Part shown: in pieces, positions 1,216-38,267 of the stretch
How positions within the stretch are numbered: the first letter of the stretch is position 1
How the letters are laid out: each line of letters opens with the position of its first letter
NCBI GenBank assembly: GCA_031287415.1
Contig: JAITSY010000031.1
Span: 1 to 38,267, forward strand
Length of the DNA stretch: 38,267 nucleotides
Source of the DNA: Candidatus Methanorbis basalitermitum
Lineage (GTDB): Archaea > Halobacteriota > Methanomicrobia > Methanomicrobiales > Methanocorpusculaceae
Direction of reading: 5' to 3'
Program-made: the position numbers and the translations under genes
The notes under the pieces: model-generated
What the model saw: the letters and a program-made list of their open reading frames with translations, nothing else
What the model was told of the DNA's origin: nothing
Databases searched by the model: none

Positions 1216-1252
1216 GTTGCACGTGCACACATCTATCAGAGGCGTGCAGCAT
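1216..1252 (+). repeat. interspersed palindromic repeat, copy 1
   Basis: GTTGCACGTGCAC followed by CTATCAGAGGCGTGCAGCAT. This is the same motif pair found at eight further places in the window. The copy abuts the broken end of the flippase-like remnant (1247-1363), and its bases overlap the last readable codons there. Confidence 0.75.
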
Positions 1253-4936: not shown

Positions 4937-4980
4937 AGTGTGCAGCGTTGCAAGGCAGCGGGTTCCGCTGCCATGCAACT
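4937..4980 (+). repeat. interspersed palindromic repeat, copy 2
   Basis: GTGTGCAGCGTTGCAAGGCAG followed by CGGGTTCCGCTGCCATGCAACT. It forms a hairpin with arms GTTGCAAGGCAGCGG and CCGCTGCCATGCAAC (one mismatch) and a two-base loop. It begins 15 nt after the Cas1-like stop codon. A CTCTTTTTTG tract at 5001-5010 could terminate the amzA-cas1 transcript. Confidence 0.8.
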
Positions 4981-6665: not shown

Positions 6666-6698
6666 ATTTTTTCGAAATTGTGCCATTCCGTGAAAGAA

Positions 6699-6764
6699 TT
6701 GCATGGCAGCGGAACCCGGCTGCCATGCAATGCACGGTACACCTCTGTCAGAGGCGTGCAGCAT
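6699..6764 (+). repeat. interspersed palindromic repeat, copy 3
   Basis: This is the fullest copy. A first hairpin (TTGCATGGCAGCGGAACCC with GGCTGCCATGCAA) is followed by TGCACGGTACACCTCTGTCA and GAGGCGTGCAGCATTA, the second dyad. It lies between the small unknown gene and the end of queC, in the convergent gap 6666-6828, where no gene is seen. Confidence 0.85.
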
Positions 6765-12007: not shown

Positions 12008-12100
12008 GACTTATCTGTTTTAAGGGGAAATATAACAGTCGATATCAACCGAGAACTAAAAAATAAATATATAATACCACTTAAAACAGATAAGTCCATT
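12008..12100. repeat. inverted repeat between convergent fusA and purD
   Basis: GACTTATCTGTTTTAAG (12008-12024) is matched in reverse by CTTAAAACAGATAAGTC (12081-12097), a 17-bp perfect stem that extends a few bases with mismatches. The 56-nt middle is AT-rich. It sits between two convergent genes and could act as a two-way transcription end, or be a small mobile-element-like unit: a related TACCACTAAAACTGATAAGG occurs at about 18605-18624. Confidence 0.6.
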
Positions 12101-14035: not shown

Positions 14036-14159
14036 TATTTGCCCTGTTACAGTTTCAGTGTTGTGCACCAGCCTTGCCAAGGAGTGAGACACAGGGCTCC
14101 GCAGAATGAAATACGGGATGGCATTGCCAAGCGGCTTATGTTAGATGTACGGCGTGACT

Positions 14160-14178
14160 TCTATCAGAGGTGTGCAGC
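14160..14178 (+). repeat. interspersed palindromic repeat, copy 4 (partial)
   Basis: TCTATCAGAGGTGTGCAGC, the second module only. The flanks have drifted so that no first-module hairpin can be seen. Confidence 0.6.
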
Positions 14179-16474: not shown

Positions 16475-16520
16475 GGTTGCACGTGCAACCACGCACACCG
16501 CTATCAGAGGTGTGCAGCAT
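16475..16520 (+). repeat. interspersed palindromic repeat, copy 5
   Basis: GGTTGCACGTGCAACC is a perfect palindrome, followed by CACGCACACCGCTATCAG and AGGTGTGCAGCAT, the second module. It sits in the 282-bp gap (16403-16684) between two convergent genes. The rest of the gap has a T-rich stretch after the Tes-like gene and no gene. Confidence 0.8.
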
Positions 16521-17258: not shown

Positions 17259-17372
17259 GGTTGCATGGCAACGGAATCCGCTGCAATGCACGTGCACGCC
17301 ACCGACAACGTACGGTCACAAGCCCTGGTTGCGCAGATGGGTCGGCATAACCTCTATCAGAGGCATGCGGCA
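17259..17372 (+). repeat. interspersed palindromic repeat, copy 6 (interrupted)
   Basis: GGTTGCATGGCAACGGAATC with CGCTGCAATGCACGTGCACGC form the first part. About 50 nt of other sequence follow, and then CTCTATCAGAGGCATGCGGCA, the second module. It separates the deoxyribosyltransferase-like gene from the surface-protein pseudogene. Confidence 0.7.
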
Positions 17373-18520: not shown

Positions 18521-18834
18521 CGGAACGATCAGTTTGAATAGAAACAGTTCTTCAAATCTGAAATATAATAGTTCATACAAATATATATATATATATATAT
18601 ATTTTACCACTAAAACTGATAAGGCCGTTTCGATATTCAGTATACTTGATCAGTCAAATCCATAAAGATCTGCCAAACCAATAGATTATTATAATACATC
18701 ATCATAAAATATCATCTATTATTCATAACTTGCAACCAACAACGTACAACTCACGTTAATTCAGCTGTGCACAGTCATTGTTTTCGAGCGTCTCGCCCTT
18801 ATCCCCAGATTTCATGGAGAGATGATGCCCAAAA
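18521..18834. other. AT-rich gene-free stretch with repeats
   Basis: Upstream of the surface-protein remnant this stretch holds the second 45-bp repeat, an (AT)n run at 18580-18602 and a TACCACTAAAACTGATAAGG segment related to the inverted repeat after fusA. I see no gene here. It includes the 3' flank of the DUF362 gene. Confidence 0.6.
18528..18572 (+). repeat. 45-bp dispersed AT-rich repeat, copy 2
   Basis: Begins ATCAGTTTGAATAGAAACA and ends GAAATATAATAGT, matching 2842-2886 with about five differences and no gaps. It is followed directly by the (AT)n run. Confidence 0.65.
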
Positions 18835-30989: not shown

Positions 30990-31079
30990 GCTGCACGTCT
31001 CTGATAGAGGTGTGCAGCGTTGCAGGGCAGCGGGACAAACATCCCAATAGAACTGCAACTGTTCCGCTGCCATGCAACT
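30990..31079 (+). repeat. interspersed palindromic repeat, copy 7
   Basis: CTGCACGTCTCTGATAGAGG and TGTGCAG form one hairpin. Next GTTGCAGGGCAGCGG is matched about 40 nt later by CCGCTGCCATGCAAC, forming a second with a longer loop. It lies in the 326-bp gap 30846-31171, whose remainder holds no gene that I can support. Confidence 0.85.
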
Positions 31080-32626: not shown

Positions 32627-32784
32627 GGGATATTTATATGCTTTGCCGGATATTCATGCTTTGCTGAGATTACAGCCATTGACCCAGAGGATTCGCAGTC
32701 AATCATCCGCCAAAACTGTCGTCCCGGGATATCTCATCCAAGAATGACAGCTCGCAGGACTCCCCAGCCACATTTTGGGCACAT
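32623..32784 (-). pseudogene. small zinc-ribbon-like ORF with an internal stop
   Basis: On the minus strand an ATG at 32784 reads MCPKCGWGVLRAVILG, then TGA (32734-32736), then in the same frame DIPGRQFWRMIDCESSGSMAVI and so on to a TGA at 32623 that overlaps the asd ATG by 4 nt. CPKC and the later C-E-S-S look like the two knuckles of a zinc ribbon with one Cys replaced by Ser. The TGA may have arisen from a Trp codon TGG. The open frame and the exact overlap argue that it was a real gene ahead of asd. Confidence 0.55.
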
Positions 32785-32798
32785 AAGGGTGGATTAGC

Positions 32799-32860
32799 TG
32801 CGCGCTTCTGATAGCGGTGTGCCGTGCATTGCAGGGCAGCTGGTTCCGTGGTCATACAAC
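32799..32860 (+). repeat. interspersed palindromic repeat, copy 8
   Basis: CTGCGCGCTTCTGATAGCGG then TGTGCCGTGCATTGCAGGGC and AGCTGGTTCCGTGGTCATAC. Both modules are recognisable but have more differences than copies 3 and 7. It lies between the zinc-ribbon remnant and the end of the AddA-like gene. Confidence 0.65.
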
Positions 32861-32900
32861 CGAAAATGCTGCATCGGATGTTCCAATGGATGCCTGAATC

Positions 32901-35639
32901 TTATCGGACCGGAGAGATTCCGTTACCTTGCGGGTCCTCCTCCGGAGCAGATGTATCTCCATCAGGGACGGCGGGCCTTATGCAAACAATTGGAATTTCC
33001 ACACACAGGCCATCATCCGTGGTAACCGTACATGAAGGACCCCTCTCCTTTGGCAGAAGATATGCAGCTATCCAGGCGGCCCGAGTGTTTTTTGGCGGGA
33101 AACATTTACCCTTCACGTACGAGAGCACCAGATGATCCCGTGCCCGTGTCATCGCAACATAAAACAGCCGTTTTTTTTCTGCAATTTCCTTTGCCTCCCG
33201 AACCTCCCTGGTAAACATCTTCACAAATGTATCTGAGGCCTGCTCCCCCATACCGTGCATTCGGATCGAAAGTCCCACTCCAAATTTTTTGTCAAGTACA
33301 AGACCCGTCCCAGGCGAGGACTTGTTTTTCTCAAGATTTGCCAGAACCACAACTGGAAACTCAAGCCCCTTTGACGCATGCACCGTCATAATCTGTACCG
33401 CGTTTTCATCCAGCAGATCGATTTGCGCCTCCTCTTCCTCAATCATTTCACCCGCACCTGTCTCAAGCATCCGTACAAACTCTGGCAGCGGCATCGCATG
33501 CTTCCTGGTCTGTACTCTTGCAAGTCCTATCAGTTTCTCCAGGTTTGCAAGTATGAACCGGCCAGTCGGTACGCCACCGTACACCGCATGCATGCCCGAC
33601 TCGCGAAGAATCCTCCGCAGCAGTTCCGGTACCGGTTCCCGCATTGCAAAACCCTGCCACCTGCGGAGCTGCGCTAGAGCAGGGGCAAGGCGTGATGCAG
33701 GATTTTCCTTCGCATGTCGGCTGATACGGCCGTAGTAACTGCCGCTGCCGGCAATGCAGAGCTCCGCATCTGAGATGCCAAAGTAGGGAGACCGCAGAAC
33801 CCCATAGAGAGCAATATCATCACTGATGCCTGCAACAACCGACAAAAGCAGCGTCATGTCGGCCACCTCCTGCGACCGGTAAAAGCCTTGGCTCTTGTAG
33901 ATGTTGTAGGGGATCTTCGACTCCTGCAAGGCCCGTTCGATCATCACCTGGCTGTTCCGTGTCTCAAGAAGAATCGCAACATCCCCGAACCGCACACACC
34001 GCATGCCGCATGCATCCCGTATCTCTATTCCAGCATCAATCATCTCCCGAATTTTTGCAGCGATCGTCCGCGCCTCAAGCAGAGCGTCGGACACCACACC
34101 ATCGGGGACAGTTTCCAGAATCCGGATCGTACCTACATCATCAATCCGTGATCCAGATACCAAGATAGGATCATAGGATACATCCCATTCCGTGGCTGTT
34201 TCAGCAAACAGCCGTGAGAACAGCGTATTCACAATGCCTAAAATCTCTTTGGTGCTGCGGAAACTGACGTCAAGCGCCACTGGCTCTGTGCCGCATCCCA
34301 TACAAATGCGCTTCTGCATCGCATTTACCCCACATATGTCGGCGTTGCGGAACGCATAAATTGACTGTTTCGGATCGCCGACAACGAAAATAGCATCGTT
34401 TGAGGGGGTAAGTGATCCGAGTATCTGCCAGATGATCGCTGATTGTGCCGGATCGGTATCTTGTACCTCATCCACAAGAATATAGGTGAAGCGCCGCCGA
34501 AGCACCTGCTGCACTGCAGGATTCTTCACAAGCAGTGCGGTCATACGGATCAGATCCTCAAAATCTAGCACGCCCCGTTGCTGCTTTTGCCGCTGATACT
34601 GGCGGAACACTTCCCGGGTCACGCGACCGAGAGCTGCAATCACCCGTACACTTTCCCTGGTAAAGGCATCATCCGCACGAGGAATGCGGCCCCATCCCTT
34701 GGGAACAGCATCTACGGCACGCCGGAAATCTGCAAACGCCTTCCGCAACCGGGCAAGATCTGTACCGAACACAGATCGACTGCCAAGCCGCGCACCGGTT
34801 GAAGCCCCGTTCGCCTCCTGCACCAGAGAGACTGCAGCATAAAACGTCTCTTCCTTCGCATCCGGGGCAAATTGCTGGAGAGCAGGAAGAATCTTCCGGA
34901 GATACTTCACGCCCGAATCATCCCCTTCGCCATAACAGTGGGCGAGATCGATCAGATCGGCTATTGCCGCAGCTGCCATTCCATCTGCAAAAAACATTTC
35001 TTGTTGCTTTCGGACCGCAGAAAGCATCTGGCCCCGCCACTGTGCAACACAGTCCTCCTCCTCCTCTAAAGTCTTTGGGAATCGATCAGAGAACTCAGGA
35101 TACTGCGGTAAAAGTTCGGCAACAACCGCCTCGGGCACGGTAAGATCTGCACACAACAGTGAAGCATCCTGGTATAGGGATTCCGGCGGCCGAACGAAGA
35201 CATTTTTGATGAGGGTTGTTGTCAGCACATGCTTCTCCATCACATCAAGAATCTCAAAACCAGGAACGACCCCAGCATCCAGCGCAAACTCCCGCAGAAC
35301 TGTTGAGCAAAATCCATGAAACGTGGTAATTGATGCCCGGAAGAGCTCATCCAGAATGCCTGCCCAAAACTGATATTCTTCTTCGGATTCTGCTTTTTCG
35401 GCAAGGTTGCGGATATCTGACCGGATGCGTTCCCGCATCTCTGTTGCGGCTTTTTCGGTGAACGTCAGGGCAAGAATATTTGAAACACTCACAGATCCGC
35501 GTCGTTCTCGCCAGTACGAAAGAAGCAGCTGGTAGCGCTGGCTCAAAATAAAGGTCTTGCCGGTCCCGGCACCTGCCGTAACGCAGAGGCTCTTTCCCAT
35601 CACCAGTGCATCTCTCTGCCGTTTGGTCAGCTCGGGCAT
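32901..35639 (-). CDS. UvrD/Rep-family helicase, AddA-like, without a nuclease domain
   Basis: A 912-residue superfamily 1 DNA helicase. Motifs: Q-like LTKRQRDALV, I TAGAGTGKT, Ia ILALTFTEKAA, II VDEVQDTDPAQ, III VGDPKQSIYAFR, IV VSFRSTKEIL, V TVHASKGLEFPVVVL and VI YVAMTRARDHLVLS. The arrangement resembles the AddA/RecB helicase part. The protein ends about 60 residues after motif VI, whereas AddA continues about 250 residues into a nuclease domain. The ATG at 35639 overlaps the stop of the AddB-like gene by 1 nt (TGATG), so the pair is translationally coupled and probably forms one complex that resects broken DNA ends. Whether the C-terminus was truncated or is normal for this lineage is not clear. 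Confidence 0.88.
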   Translation of the reverse strand: MPELTKRQRDALVMGKSLCVTAGAGTGKTFILSQRYQLLLSYWRERRGSVSVSNILALTFTEKAATEMRERIRSDIRNLAEKAESEEEYQFWAGILDELFRASITTFHGFCSTVLREFALDAGVVPGFEILDVMEKHVLTTTLIKNVFVRPPESLYQDASLLCADLTVPEAVVAELLPQYPEFSDRFPKTLEEEEDCVAQWRGQMLSAVRKQQEMFFADGMAAAAIADLIDLAHCYGEGDDSGVKYLRKILPALQQFAPDAKEETFYAAVSLVQEANGASTGARLGSRSVFGTDLARLRKAFADFRRAVDAVPKGWGRIPRADDAFTRESVRVIAALGRVTREVFRQYQRQKQQRGVLDFEDLIRMTALLVKNPAVQQVLRRRFTYILVDEVQDTDPAQSAIIWQILGSLTPSNDAIFVVGDPKQSIYAFRNADICGVNAMQKRICMGCGTEPVALDVSFRSTKEILGIVNTLFSRLFAETATEWDVSYDPILVSGSRIDDVGTIRILETVPDGVVSDALLEARTIAAKIREMIDAGIEIRDACGMRCVRFGDVAILLETRNSQVMIERALQESKIPYNIYKSQGFYRSQEVADMTLLLSVVAGISDDIALYGVLRSPYFGISDAELCIAGSGSYYGRISRHAKENPASRLAPALAQLRRWQGFAMREPVPELLRRILRESGMHAVYGGVPTGRFILANLEKLIGLARVQTRKHAMPLPEFVRMLETGAGEMIEEEEAQIDLLDENAVQIMTVHASKGLEFPVVVLANLEKNKSSPGTGLVLDKKFGVGLSIRMHGMGEQASDTFVKMFTREVREAKEIAEKKRLFYVAMTRARDHLVLSYVKGKCFPPKNTRAAWIAAYLLPKERGPSCTVTTDDGLCVEIPIVCIRPAVPDGDTSAPEEDPQGNGISPVR

Positions 35640-38267
35640 CAGGCATTGCCTCTGACAAGCGATCTGAGTTTGTTGAATCGGCAGATACATCGCTCGCGGC
35701 AGGTCTCGCAGATAGCTTTTTCGTAGGACGGAGAGCAAACGCCGTTCTGCATGCCTTGCCGGTATTGGGCGGCGTACGCAAGTGCATCTGAGACAAAACA
35801 GTCGCCGTCCACAACCAGCGGATGTATTTCTGCAACGGCACCGGCCGATATCTGATAGTAGGTCCCCCCGGCTAGCTTCCAGTCAGGATGCAGATGCTCC
35901 ATTGCCAAAAGATATAATGGAAGCTGCAGTGATTTGCCAGATTTTATCTCGGCTGGCTTTTTTATGCGACCGGTCTTGTAGTCGGTGACAAAAAATCTCC
36001 CCCCAACTAGCCGTATCCGGTCGATACGCCCCTCCAGCCGGATCTCACTACCGTTTGGAAGTAGAAGGCCCGGAAGGTTCGCCATAGTGAATGAATACTC
36101 AAGCAGCTCTTTGGGAGAGATGCTGCCAGAAGCTGCCAATTCAATTTCGTGATCGATCACCTCGGCGAGCCGCCCGGGATACTCTGGTGTTCCAATGTAC
36201 CGGTTCCGCAGACTCTGCCACTTCGGCGTCTCAAGACTGATTTTGGCAAACTCCTCATTAGCAATTTTCAGCAGGTCTGCAACTGCTGCATCCCGTACTT
36301 CCGGGGTCGGCGGGAAGTACGGCGATTCAGTTATCAGGCGATACATCGTCGTGTGGATAACGTTCCCAAGCTCTGACCGCCCGTCACTTTCGGGATCAGG
36401 ATGTGGCACCAGCCGCAGATGCAGCTCGGCATACCATCGGAACGGGCATGCGGCATACGTTTCCAGATTGGTTGCAGAAAAGCAGGCCTCCTCCCCGTAC
36501 TGCCCAATAAACTGCTCCCGCAACGGATGGAACGCAAACACCGCATCGTACTCGGTTACGGGTGGCCCTGCGCGATCCAAGATTTCTATGCTGATTCTCT
36601 GCACCACACTATCCATAGCTGCACGCCTCATGTGGAGGTGTGCAGTGGTTGCACGTGGAACACGTGCAACGCTGCAAGCGTCCCGCTGCCCTGCAACTTC
36701 CAACAGCCGGGAACAGTCAAGTCCCTCCTCCAACCGCCCCTCCGCAATCAAATGCCCTGCGCGCACCGCAAGACACGATGCAGAGTGGCGGAGTTCTTCC
36801 CCTTCCCACTCGGTTACAGGCAGATTAAACATCTGCAACCATGCGGATGGTATTTTGATCGTACCTTCGTCACTTGCAGGAGAGGACAGATGGATAGACT
36901 CGGTTGCTGCAAGAAGCACTGAAAGAAACGCGTAGCGCTCGTCTCGCAGTGCATCCTCATAGGTCTGGGTCTTTGCCTCAAGAGTCTCTGCCATCGTCAG
37001 AAACGGCAGCCGTGGGTGCACGCGGGGAAGAACATCTGCGGTGAGTCCAGCAAGGAAAACATGGGCTATCTTATGATGAACGATCTCCCGGAAGCCAAGA
37101 ATTTTCACCATATCCTCGTCACGGTAGGCGTGCTGCGAACTGCTCTGTGGTGACTTGACAAACGCAAACAGCATCGAATAGAACTGGCCCAAGGAGATGC
37201 GGTCCGGTCGCATCAAGGTTCCGGCTGCGTCAATGCTGGCAAGAACCGCAAAAAAATTGCGGACCGCTACTGTGTCTTCGGGTGATCGGCACCGGCGACG
37301 ATAACCGAGTGTTTTCAGCGTTCGGCGCAACAACAGGACAAACTCTGACACAGTTTGTCTGCTGCTACCAAACGGTGCAAGAAGGGAAAACACACTCTCT
37401 AACTTCTGGTGCATCGCATCGATCTTTTCAATCTTTGCAGCAAGGTCTGCTTTTTCGGGAACAGGGGTGCTGGAATTTTCAAGACCTGCAGATAATTTCG
37501 CTCTGAACACCAGCGGATACTCCAGCCACTGCCATTCACCTCCGGTGATCCCCGCCGAACGCGAAAGCCAGGTGAGATCACGGGGTGAAATGTACAGTTT
37601 TTCCCCCAAAAAATTGGGGTAGGAGAAAAGTGTGGTCATGCCCTCAATGGTATAGTTTCCAACAACAGTCTTCAGAAGAGAGAGCATGGCGACAACCGGC
37701 TGACTGCGAAATTGGGGATGTCCAATTGAACTGGTGAACCTCAGGGGCTGGCCAGCCGCGGAAAAATCTGGGGACAATTCTGCGGCAAGTTCGGCATACC
37801 GCAAAACCTCCGGAGTGAGCACCGCGATATCGCAGGGCCTGACACCAGTTTCGATGAGACGGCATATCTCTTCCGCAATCGCGGAAAATTCCTTTATTCT
37901 GTCAGGGAATATTCCAATCTTTTGAATCGGCAGATCGAGGGGGAGGGAAAGAGTGTTGAAAAGACTCTCCGCAAACGCGGCCCGTGTCTGTTTCGTCCCA
38001 CTGTTTTCCTTTGATGCATCTGCAGGTTTTTCCAAAAATATTTTGGCATTGTTTGCATATGGAACAAATTCAGATACCCGCACTACCTGGTCCCTGACGG
38101 CGTCCAACAGCTCCGCCTCCAGTTTTTTTGGGGAAAAAATGCCATAAATAATGACGGTTTTTACGGAAAATATTCCATTTCGAACCGCATTCGCTGCAAG
38201 CCTGAGAATCTTGGTCTGATCCGCCATTTGTTCCCTTTCACAAAATGCATCGTATTCGGCAAATACT
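35639..38267 (-). CDS. AddB-like nuclease/inactivated helicase, partial at window edge
   Basis: The reading frame is open to the right edge, so the N-terminus lies outside; the ATG at 38227 is unlikely to be the true start because upstream codons (VFAEYDAFCEREQ) are also in frame. At least 875 residues are present. The middle is UvrD-like without catalytic motifs, as in AddB. The C-terminal PD-(D/E)XK nuclease shows ELGNVIHTTMY, GRIDRIRLVGGRFFVTDYKTGR with the active-site Asp and the D-Y-K-T-G motif, and QLPLYLLAME. A 4Fe-4S staple is indicated by Cys in YAACPFRWY and by CETCRERCIC near the end, with the C-x2-C-x5-C spacing of AddB. A repeat copy (36620-36698) is read in frame as about 27 extra residues. 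Confidence 0.87.
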   Translation of the reverse strand, partial: VFAEYDAFCEREQMADQTKILRLAANAVRNGIFSVKTVIIYGIFSPKKLEAELLDAVRDQVVRVSEFVPYANNAKIFLEKPADASKENSGTKQTRAAFAESLFNTLSLPLDLPIQKIGIFPDRIKEFSAIAEEICRLIETGVRPCDIAVLTPEVLRYAELAAELSPDFSAAGQPLRFTSSIGHPQFRSQPVVAMLSLLKTVVGNYTIEGMTTLFSYPNFLGEKLYISPRDLTWLSRSAGITGGEWQWLEYPLVFRAKLSAGLENSSTPVPEKADLAAKIEKIDAMHQKLESVFSLLAPFGSSRQTVSEFVLLLRRTLKTLGYRRRCRSPEDTVAVRNFFAVLASIDAAGTLMRPDRISLGQFYSMLFAFVKSPQSSSQHAYRDEDMVKILGFREIVHHKIAHVFLAGLTADVLPRVHPRLPFLTMAETLEAKTQTYEDALRDERYAFLSVLLAATESIHLSSPASDEGTIKIPSAWLQMFNLPVTEWEGEELRHSASCLAVRAGHLIAEGRLEEGLDCSRLLEVAGQRDACSVARVPRATTAHLHMRRAAMDSVVQRISIEILDRAGPPVTEYDAVFAFHPLREQFIGQYGEEACFSATNLETYAACPFRWYAELHLRLVPHPDPESDGRSELGNVIHTTMYRLITESPYFPPTPEVRDAAVADLLKIANEEFAKISLETPKWQSLRNRYIGTPEYPGRLAEVIDHEIELAASGSISPKELLEYSFTMANLPGLLLPNGSEIRLEGRIDRIRLVGGRFFVTDYKTGRIKKPAEIKSGKSLQLPLYLLAMEHLHPDWKLAGGTYYQISAGAVAEIHPLVVDGDCFVSDALAYAAQYRQGMQNGVCSPSYEKAICETCRERCICRFNKLRSLVRGNA
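36620..36698 (-). repeat. interspersed palindromic repeat, copy 9, in frame inside the AddB-like gene
   Basis: CTGCACGCCTC/GAGGTGTGCAG (36620-36646) and a perfect GTTGCACGTG, GAA, CACGTGCAAC (36649-36671) form two hairpins, followed by GCAAGCGTCCCGCTGCCCTG and CAAC. In the coding strand it reads about VAGQRDACSVARVPRATTAH and LHMRRAA. No stop or frameshift results. Confidence 0.8.

Follow-up and report, generated by a model that had tools for sequence, protein, structure and literature searches.

A palindromic element of 81 nt lies in frame inside an AddB-like gene of Candidatus Methanorbis basalitermitum, between the helicase-like part of the protein and its nuclease domain. Very probably it is one of a few in-frame copies that are tolerated in proteins while the family to which it belongs, a mobile palindrome, has spread through the genome. 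The host genome comprises 1.16 Mb on 33 contigs and is 74% complete, and the window, i.e. the whole stretch of 38,267 nt analysed here, is one entire contig of it. The gene and the parts of the element are located as follows:

35639..38227, minus strand: AddB-like gene, 862 codons, N-terminus off the contig (Pfam PDDEXK_1, six orthologues, 3u44 profile match)
35678..36481, minus strand: PD-(D/E)XK nuclease domain of AddB with Fe-S cysteines, motifs intact (Pfam and alignment columns)
36618..36698, plus strand: 81-nt element, three-hairpin variant, 27 codons in frame, antisense to the AddB-like gene (family-defined ends, orthologue DNA gap, fold)
36618..36645, plus strand: hairpin 1, the left-end module GCTGCACGCCTC-ATGTG-GAGGTGTGCAG, 11-12 bp (fold; homologous to the 143 left ends)
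36648..36670, plus strand: hairpin 2, GTTGCACGTG-GAA-CACGTGCAAC, 10 bp, an optional internal module (fold; in ~15 other copies)
36671..36698, plus strand: third, weaker hairpin and right end (...CTGCAACT) (fold, family ends)

The profile of Bacillus subtilis AddB (3u44) matches the gene with an E of 2.6e-38 and PDDEXK_1 covers residues 583-850 (E=4e-33), while GRIDR, DYKTG and the cysteines C594, C843 and C849 occupy invariant or nearly invariant alignment columns. Its nearest named relatives come from MAGs of Methanocorpusculum and Methanocalculaceae. The insert begins at codon 510, position 3, and ends at codon 537, position 2. Six congeners have orthologues (58-66% identical) that delimit it precisely: exactly 81 nt are absent in five of them in protein and DNA alignments (G001, G004, G008, G017, G021), and in the sixth, G019, tblastn matches to residues 2-511 and 542-861 lie on DNA pieces only 9 nt apart. 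The filled site reads TATCCATA-element-TCCAACAG and in the empty site of a congener GACAGA is joined directly to TCCGGAAG; from this comparison, there is no target-site duplication. The ends of the copy, as defined separately from the other family members, coincide with the orthologue alignment gap. Folded as single-stranded DNA, the copy, whose extra module is GTTGCACGTGGAACACGTGCAAC, reaches -28.6 kcal/mol (z=-4.7), with 0 of 200 shuffles as good.

The initial annotation had placed a palindromic repeat with two nearly perfect hairpins in frame just ahead of the nuclease domain of this gene and had predicted a clean gap in its orthologues. All of this was borne out: the exact span is 36618-36698 (27 codons), the insert follows residue 510 and the domain begins at 583, the two stems have 11-12 and 10 bp in the fold, and 27 residues are missing in six of six congeners. 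As these show a gap of exactly 27 codons and no comparable peptide, the objection that orthologues without the repeat might carry a similar peptide falls away. In the 3u44 profile alignment, a length difference occurs near the insert, before the first Fe-S cysteine region, which suggests that this part of AddB is a tolerant linker. An AlphaFold model of the C-terminal half, based on a three-sequence alignment, had a mean pLDDT of 39 and was left out of account.

The AddB copy belongs to a large family. Matching the consensus 21-mer of the left end (<=3 mismatches) against the whole 1.16-Mb genome yielded at least 143 left ends versus 0 for the reversed pattern used as control, and element copies are present on 32 of the 33 contigs. 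They run from GCTGCAC to GCAACT, giving the termini an imperfect symmetry (GCTGCA...TGCAAC). The commonest complete form has 65 nt and two tandem hairpins; in longer forms, of 81-188 nt, hairpin modules have been gained or swapped internally, and left hairpins of ~27 nt also stand alone. The 62-nt consensus had no match at E 1e-3 in 231 other genomes of the order, the AddB copy as query had none in 24 congeners apart from one of 20 nt, and the family is apparently species-specific. A chance repeat or an ordinary protein loop is ruled out by the copy number and the exact gap in orthologues. The window has no match to an Rfam family, and a phage origin was likewise discarded, the exact 21-nt left end occurring in no viral contig.

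Insertion sites share a degenerate preference on the left, GSAWWW: among 134 left ends, 77 have G at -6, 115 have C or G at -5, and 61 have A/T in all of the last three positions (binomial p < 1e-14 each). The AddB site fits this motif in part. The consensus has no stops in five of its six frames, which would be unremarkable in a short GC-rich repeat. By a crude proxy, the elements avoid long open frames, with the midpoints of 26 of 154 falling within such frames versus ~87 expected from coverage. About eight further copies lie in the window, in agreement with the label "copy 9" that the AddB copy had been given:

32797..32861, plus strand: 65-nt two-hairpin form, inside the AddA remnant (repeat match, translation)
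30990..31079, plus strand: 90-nt modular form (repeat match, family ends)
17259..17371, minus strand: 113-nt modular form (repeat match, family ends)
16484..16518, minus strand: partial copy (repeat match)
14155..14178, minus strand: partial copy, left end (repeat match)
6697..6762, minus strand: 66-nt two-hairpin form (repeat match, family ends)
4938..4980, plus strand: right-end module with degenerate left end (repeat match)
1218..1250, minus strand: left-end hairpin (repeat match)

A census that is a lower bound, with 154 element clusters scanned across 392 kb of DNA around copies, revealed three more proteins with insertions. In an Orn/Lys/Arg decarboxylase (contig C10), an insert of 111 nt, exactly 37 codons, lies between the Pfam domains OKR_DC_1 and OKR_DC_1_C; it is absent in 11 aligned congener orthologues, and in others the same alignment gap flanks it. 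Hypoxanthine phosphoribosyltransferase (HPRT, contig C2) contains a solo hairpin of 27 nt, corresponding to exactly 9 codons, and the empty site in relatives is intact, with GGAG running directly into ATTACATCGG. In the helicase Hel308 (contig C26), a copy of 143 nt occupies the variable C-terminal linker after the last domain, and the protein is ~56 residues longer than its relatives. Behind this linker follows an end of the QKTLLDF type that is conserved in seven congeners and that we take to be a PIP-box-like motif. Since 143 is no multiple of three, other indels in the hypervariable linker must have kept the frame. The remaining three of the four insertions (AddB, decarboxylase, HPRT) have lengths exactly divisible by three and clean empty sites, none of which has a target-site duplication, and the decarboxylase, HPRT and Hel308 genes look intact despite their inserts.

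The element runs antisense in AddB and the decarboxylase, where it is read in different frames, and sense in HPRT and Hel308, which have the left-end frame LHASD.GV in common. With both orientations and different frames in use, the inserted peptides have no common sequence, and their positions, which domain and profile alignments place in linkers or loops, further argue that the elements are tolerated selfish DNA and provide no useful peptide. A functional peptide was rejected as the insertions share neither frame nor orientation. Inspected by eye, several further frames that are open across elements were classed as antisense or intergenic and set aside.

More copies are found at the edges of genes. 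Copy L078 (G000:C19:32935-33066) immediately follows a stop codon at the start of a DNA methyltransferase-like frame (NPPY motif) and has probably broken this gene. At L099 (G000:C13:70124-70600), two copies flank and extend a branched-chain aminotransferase-like fragment, which might be a truncated gene whose tail is encoded by an element. The element L136 (G000:C13:30410-30523) terminates in ATGCAACT; a PAPS-reductase-domain gene follows immediately in the same frame, and the element could thus supply its start codon (MQL...).

The neighbourhood of AddB has undergone another change, which affects its partner AddA:

32901..35639, minus strand: AddA-like helicase gene, truncated, without the C-terminal nuclease domain of congeners (domain search, orthologue comparison)
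32630..32900, minus strand: decayed AddA nuclease remnant (stop, frameshift) holding the element copy 32797-32861 (translation, orthologue comparison)

In six of six congeners, AddA has ~1100 residues with a C-terminal PD-(D/E)XK nuclease domain; here it ends ~180 residues early, a truncation absent in those six. Remnants of the lost domain, QNVAGESCELSF and GRQFWRMIDCESSG, are preserved in shifted frames around the element copy, and the next gene after the remnant is aspartate-semialdehyde-dehydrogenase-like. As the nuclease motifs of AddB are kept, the pair would be left with AddB as its sole nuclease.

This raises the question of whether AddAB is a decaying pseudogene pair, in which the insert would be one more lesion that left the frame open. 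We consider this unlikely. The lost AddA nuclease, with its remnant containing a stop, frameshifts and an element copy, is in line with such decay, and so is the rate of AddB, which is faster than in congeners: a relative-rate test gave 86 vs 52 lineage-specific substitutions (p=0.004) and four triples agree, which indicates a moderate acceleration in this lineage. On the other hand, all 862 AddB codons are open with every nuclease and Fe-S motif present, the AddA helicase retains ~912 open codons at 70% identity, and the codon-position differences of AddB downstream of the insert (0.21/0.18/0.52) point to purifying selection over the long term. The insertions in three intact-looking genes elsewhere in the genome speak against decay as well. 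A relaxed constraint on AddAB is plausible, given that AddB is fast, the control decarboxylase is not (36 vs 32, not significant) and the AddA helicase is weakly so (96 vs 82). Relaxed constraint may help explain why the insert in AddB was tolerated; for those in the decarboxylase, HPRT and Hel308 it is unneeded.

It is far less probable that the element has been domesticated, i.e. that its peptide or its mRNA hairpins function in AddB and are maintained. In favour of this, the AddB copy has almost perfect stems, and of its differences from the subfamily consensus (6 of 81 positions, 7%) four are confined to one hairpin loop. However, this divergence is typical of the family, complete 65-nt copies differing from their consensus at 4-14 of 65 positions (median 7). 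The insert is absent in all congeners, and other proteins use different frames and orientations. Moreover, the stems of 15 copies contained one compensatory cell in 17 pairs and the covariation energy was about zero (+0.35); stems without compensatory change indicate that the hairpins look inherited and not selected. A selected RNA structure was dismissed for the same lack of covariation across the family. The proposal that the near-perfect hairpins may mark a recent or maintained insertion thus gained no support, with divergence ordinary for the family and essentially no compensatory stem change.

An assembly or binning artefact, a repeat misjoined inside AddB, comes to mind in a fragmented, 74%-complete metagenome assembly with a multicopy repeat, but is scarcely credible considering that both flanks lie in one reading frame with 60-70% identity to orthologues, that the AddB copy is unique (the best other copy has 93% over 59 nt), that the pattern recurs in three other genes, two of them with exact-codon lengths, and that elements occur on almost every contig.

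We thus favour the spread of a mobile palindrome with occasional tolerance in proteins. The 81-nt stretch would be a single copy of a mobile element that is palindromic, modular and non-autonomous and that reached its present number of at least 143 left ends after the split from the sequenced congeners; species restriction, precise ends and empty sites all point to mobility as the cause of this spread. Insertion seems to be precise, with GCTGCAC...GCAACT joined to an uninterrupted site and no target-site duplication. Most copies are intergenic, presumably because in-gene copies are normally purged by selection, and survivors within proteins would be those with a length that is a multiple of three, an open frame and a flexible linker as target. 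In AddB, the 27 residues added after the helicase-like part and ahead of the nuclease domain are probably a neutral or mildly harmful spacer, the tolerance of which might partly stem from relaxed constraint on AddAB after the loss of the AddA nuclease. A putative mobilising enzyme is likely to exist. Y1 transposases (PF01797) were found neither in the 74%-complete genome nor in 18 congeners (control genomes were positive), the same incomplete genome had no IS110 transposase, and no autonomous element with shared terminal repeats was seen in the 392 kb of DNA around copies, where long left-right end pairs that might represent one span only 0.5-3 kb.

The best-known examples of palindromes captured in frame by proteins come from Rickettsia and Wolbachia, where Rickettsia palindromic elements (RPEs) and their Wolbachia counterparts of ~100-150 bp are dispersed both in intergenic regions and in frame within unrelated proteins; nearly half of the first-reported RPEs lie in proteins, and RPE-4 is listed in a recB-family exonuclease (PMC2229807, PMC10969869, PMC3767692). 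The resemblance to RPEs noted for the AddB copy alone was reinforced by its three counterparts in other proteins of the genome. Like RPEs, the archaeal elements are palindromic, dispersed in many copies, traversed by open frames and located between genes as well as in frame in several unrelated genes with empty sites in relatives (AddB, decarboxylase, HPRT, Hel308). In contrast to RPEs, they reside in an archaeon, are GC-rich, vary from 27 to 188 nt with shuffled modules, and only a handful of 154 copies are in proteins. By description, they may be regarded as functionally RPE-like, a likeness that includes no recognised sequence relation; the host being a Methanocorpusculum-type archaeon, we do not claim membership in the Rickettsia palindromic elements proper. 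Palindromic repeats with coding potential that are fused into protein genes were reported from Methanocaldococcus jannaschii (Suyama et al. 2005, cited in PMC2229807). Judging from that citation, they share with our elements the archaeal host and the fusion into protein genes, so protein-coding palindromes would already be known in archaea and ours would be a second case.

Other families of short repeats offer partial parallels. REP, REPIN and BIME sequences are similar in the many short palindromes per genome, the paired hairpins, the mosaic structure and the mostly extragenic location. REP and REPIN systems with RAYT differ by their Y1 transposase and by the GTAG/CGTC tag, absent from 134 left and 103 right flanks here, where the degenerate GSAWWW appears on the left. 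The elements also resemble prokaryotic MITEs in being short, non-autonomous and multicopy with imperfect terminal symmetry. However, target-site duplication is typical of MITEs, and the three clean empty sites had none, nor was a parent insertion sequence found.

Taken further, the data could hint at a previously undescribed family of archaeal palindromes with forms from 27 to ~190 nt, and precise GSAWWW-type insertion without target duplication through some putative enzyme, a family whose in-frame capture would lengthen core repair and metabolic proteins in one, perhaps host-restricted, methanogen lineage; we put this forward tentatively, as a possibility that is rather less likely than not to apply in full. 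A Rickettsia-like, host-restricted lifestyle of this species is an attractive idea because methanogens of this genus include endosymbionts of anaerobic ciliates. With four or more insertions placed, of which three have exact boundaries, in a genus that has many relatives with empty sites, both the movement without target duplication and a possible gain to the proteins are testable now. The case also presents AddAB as a pair in which one nuclease domain was lost and the other subunit has an inserted linker.

Two more repeats were observed in the window. An AT-rich direct repeat of 57 nt (2835-2891 and 18521-18577, 84% identical) is apparently unrelated to the palindromes, and a 27-nt inverted repeat (12008-12096) with 89% complementary arms and 35 nt between them is located just after a gene of the elongation-factor-2 type.
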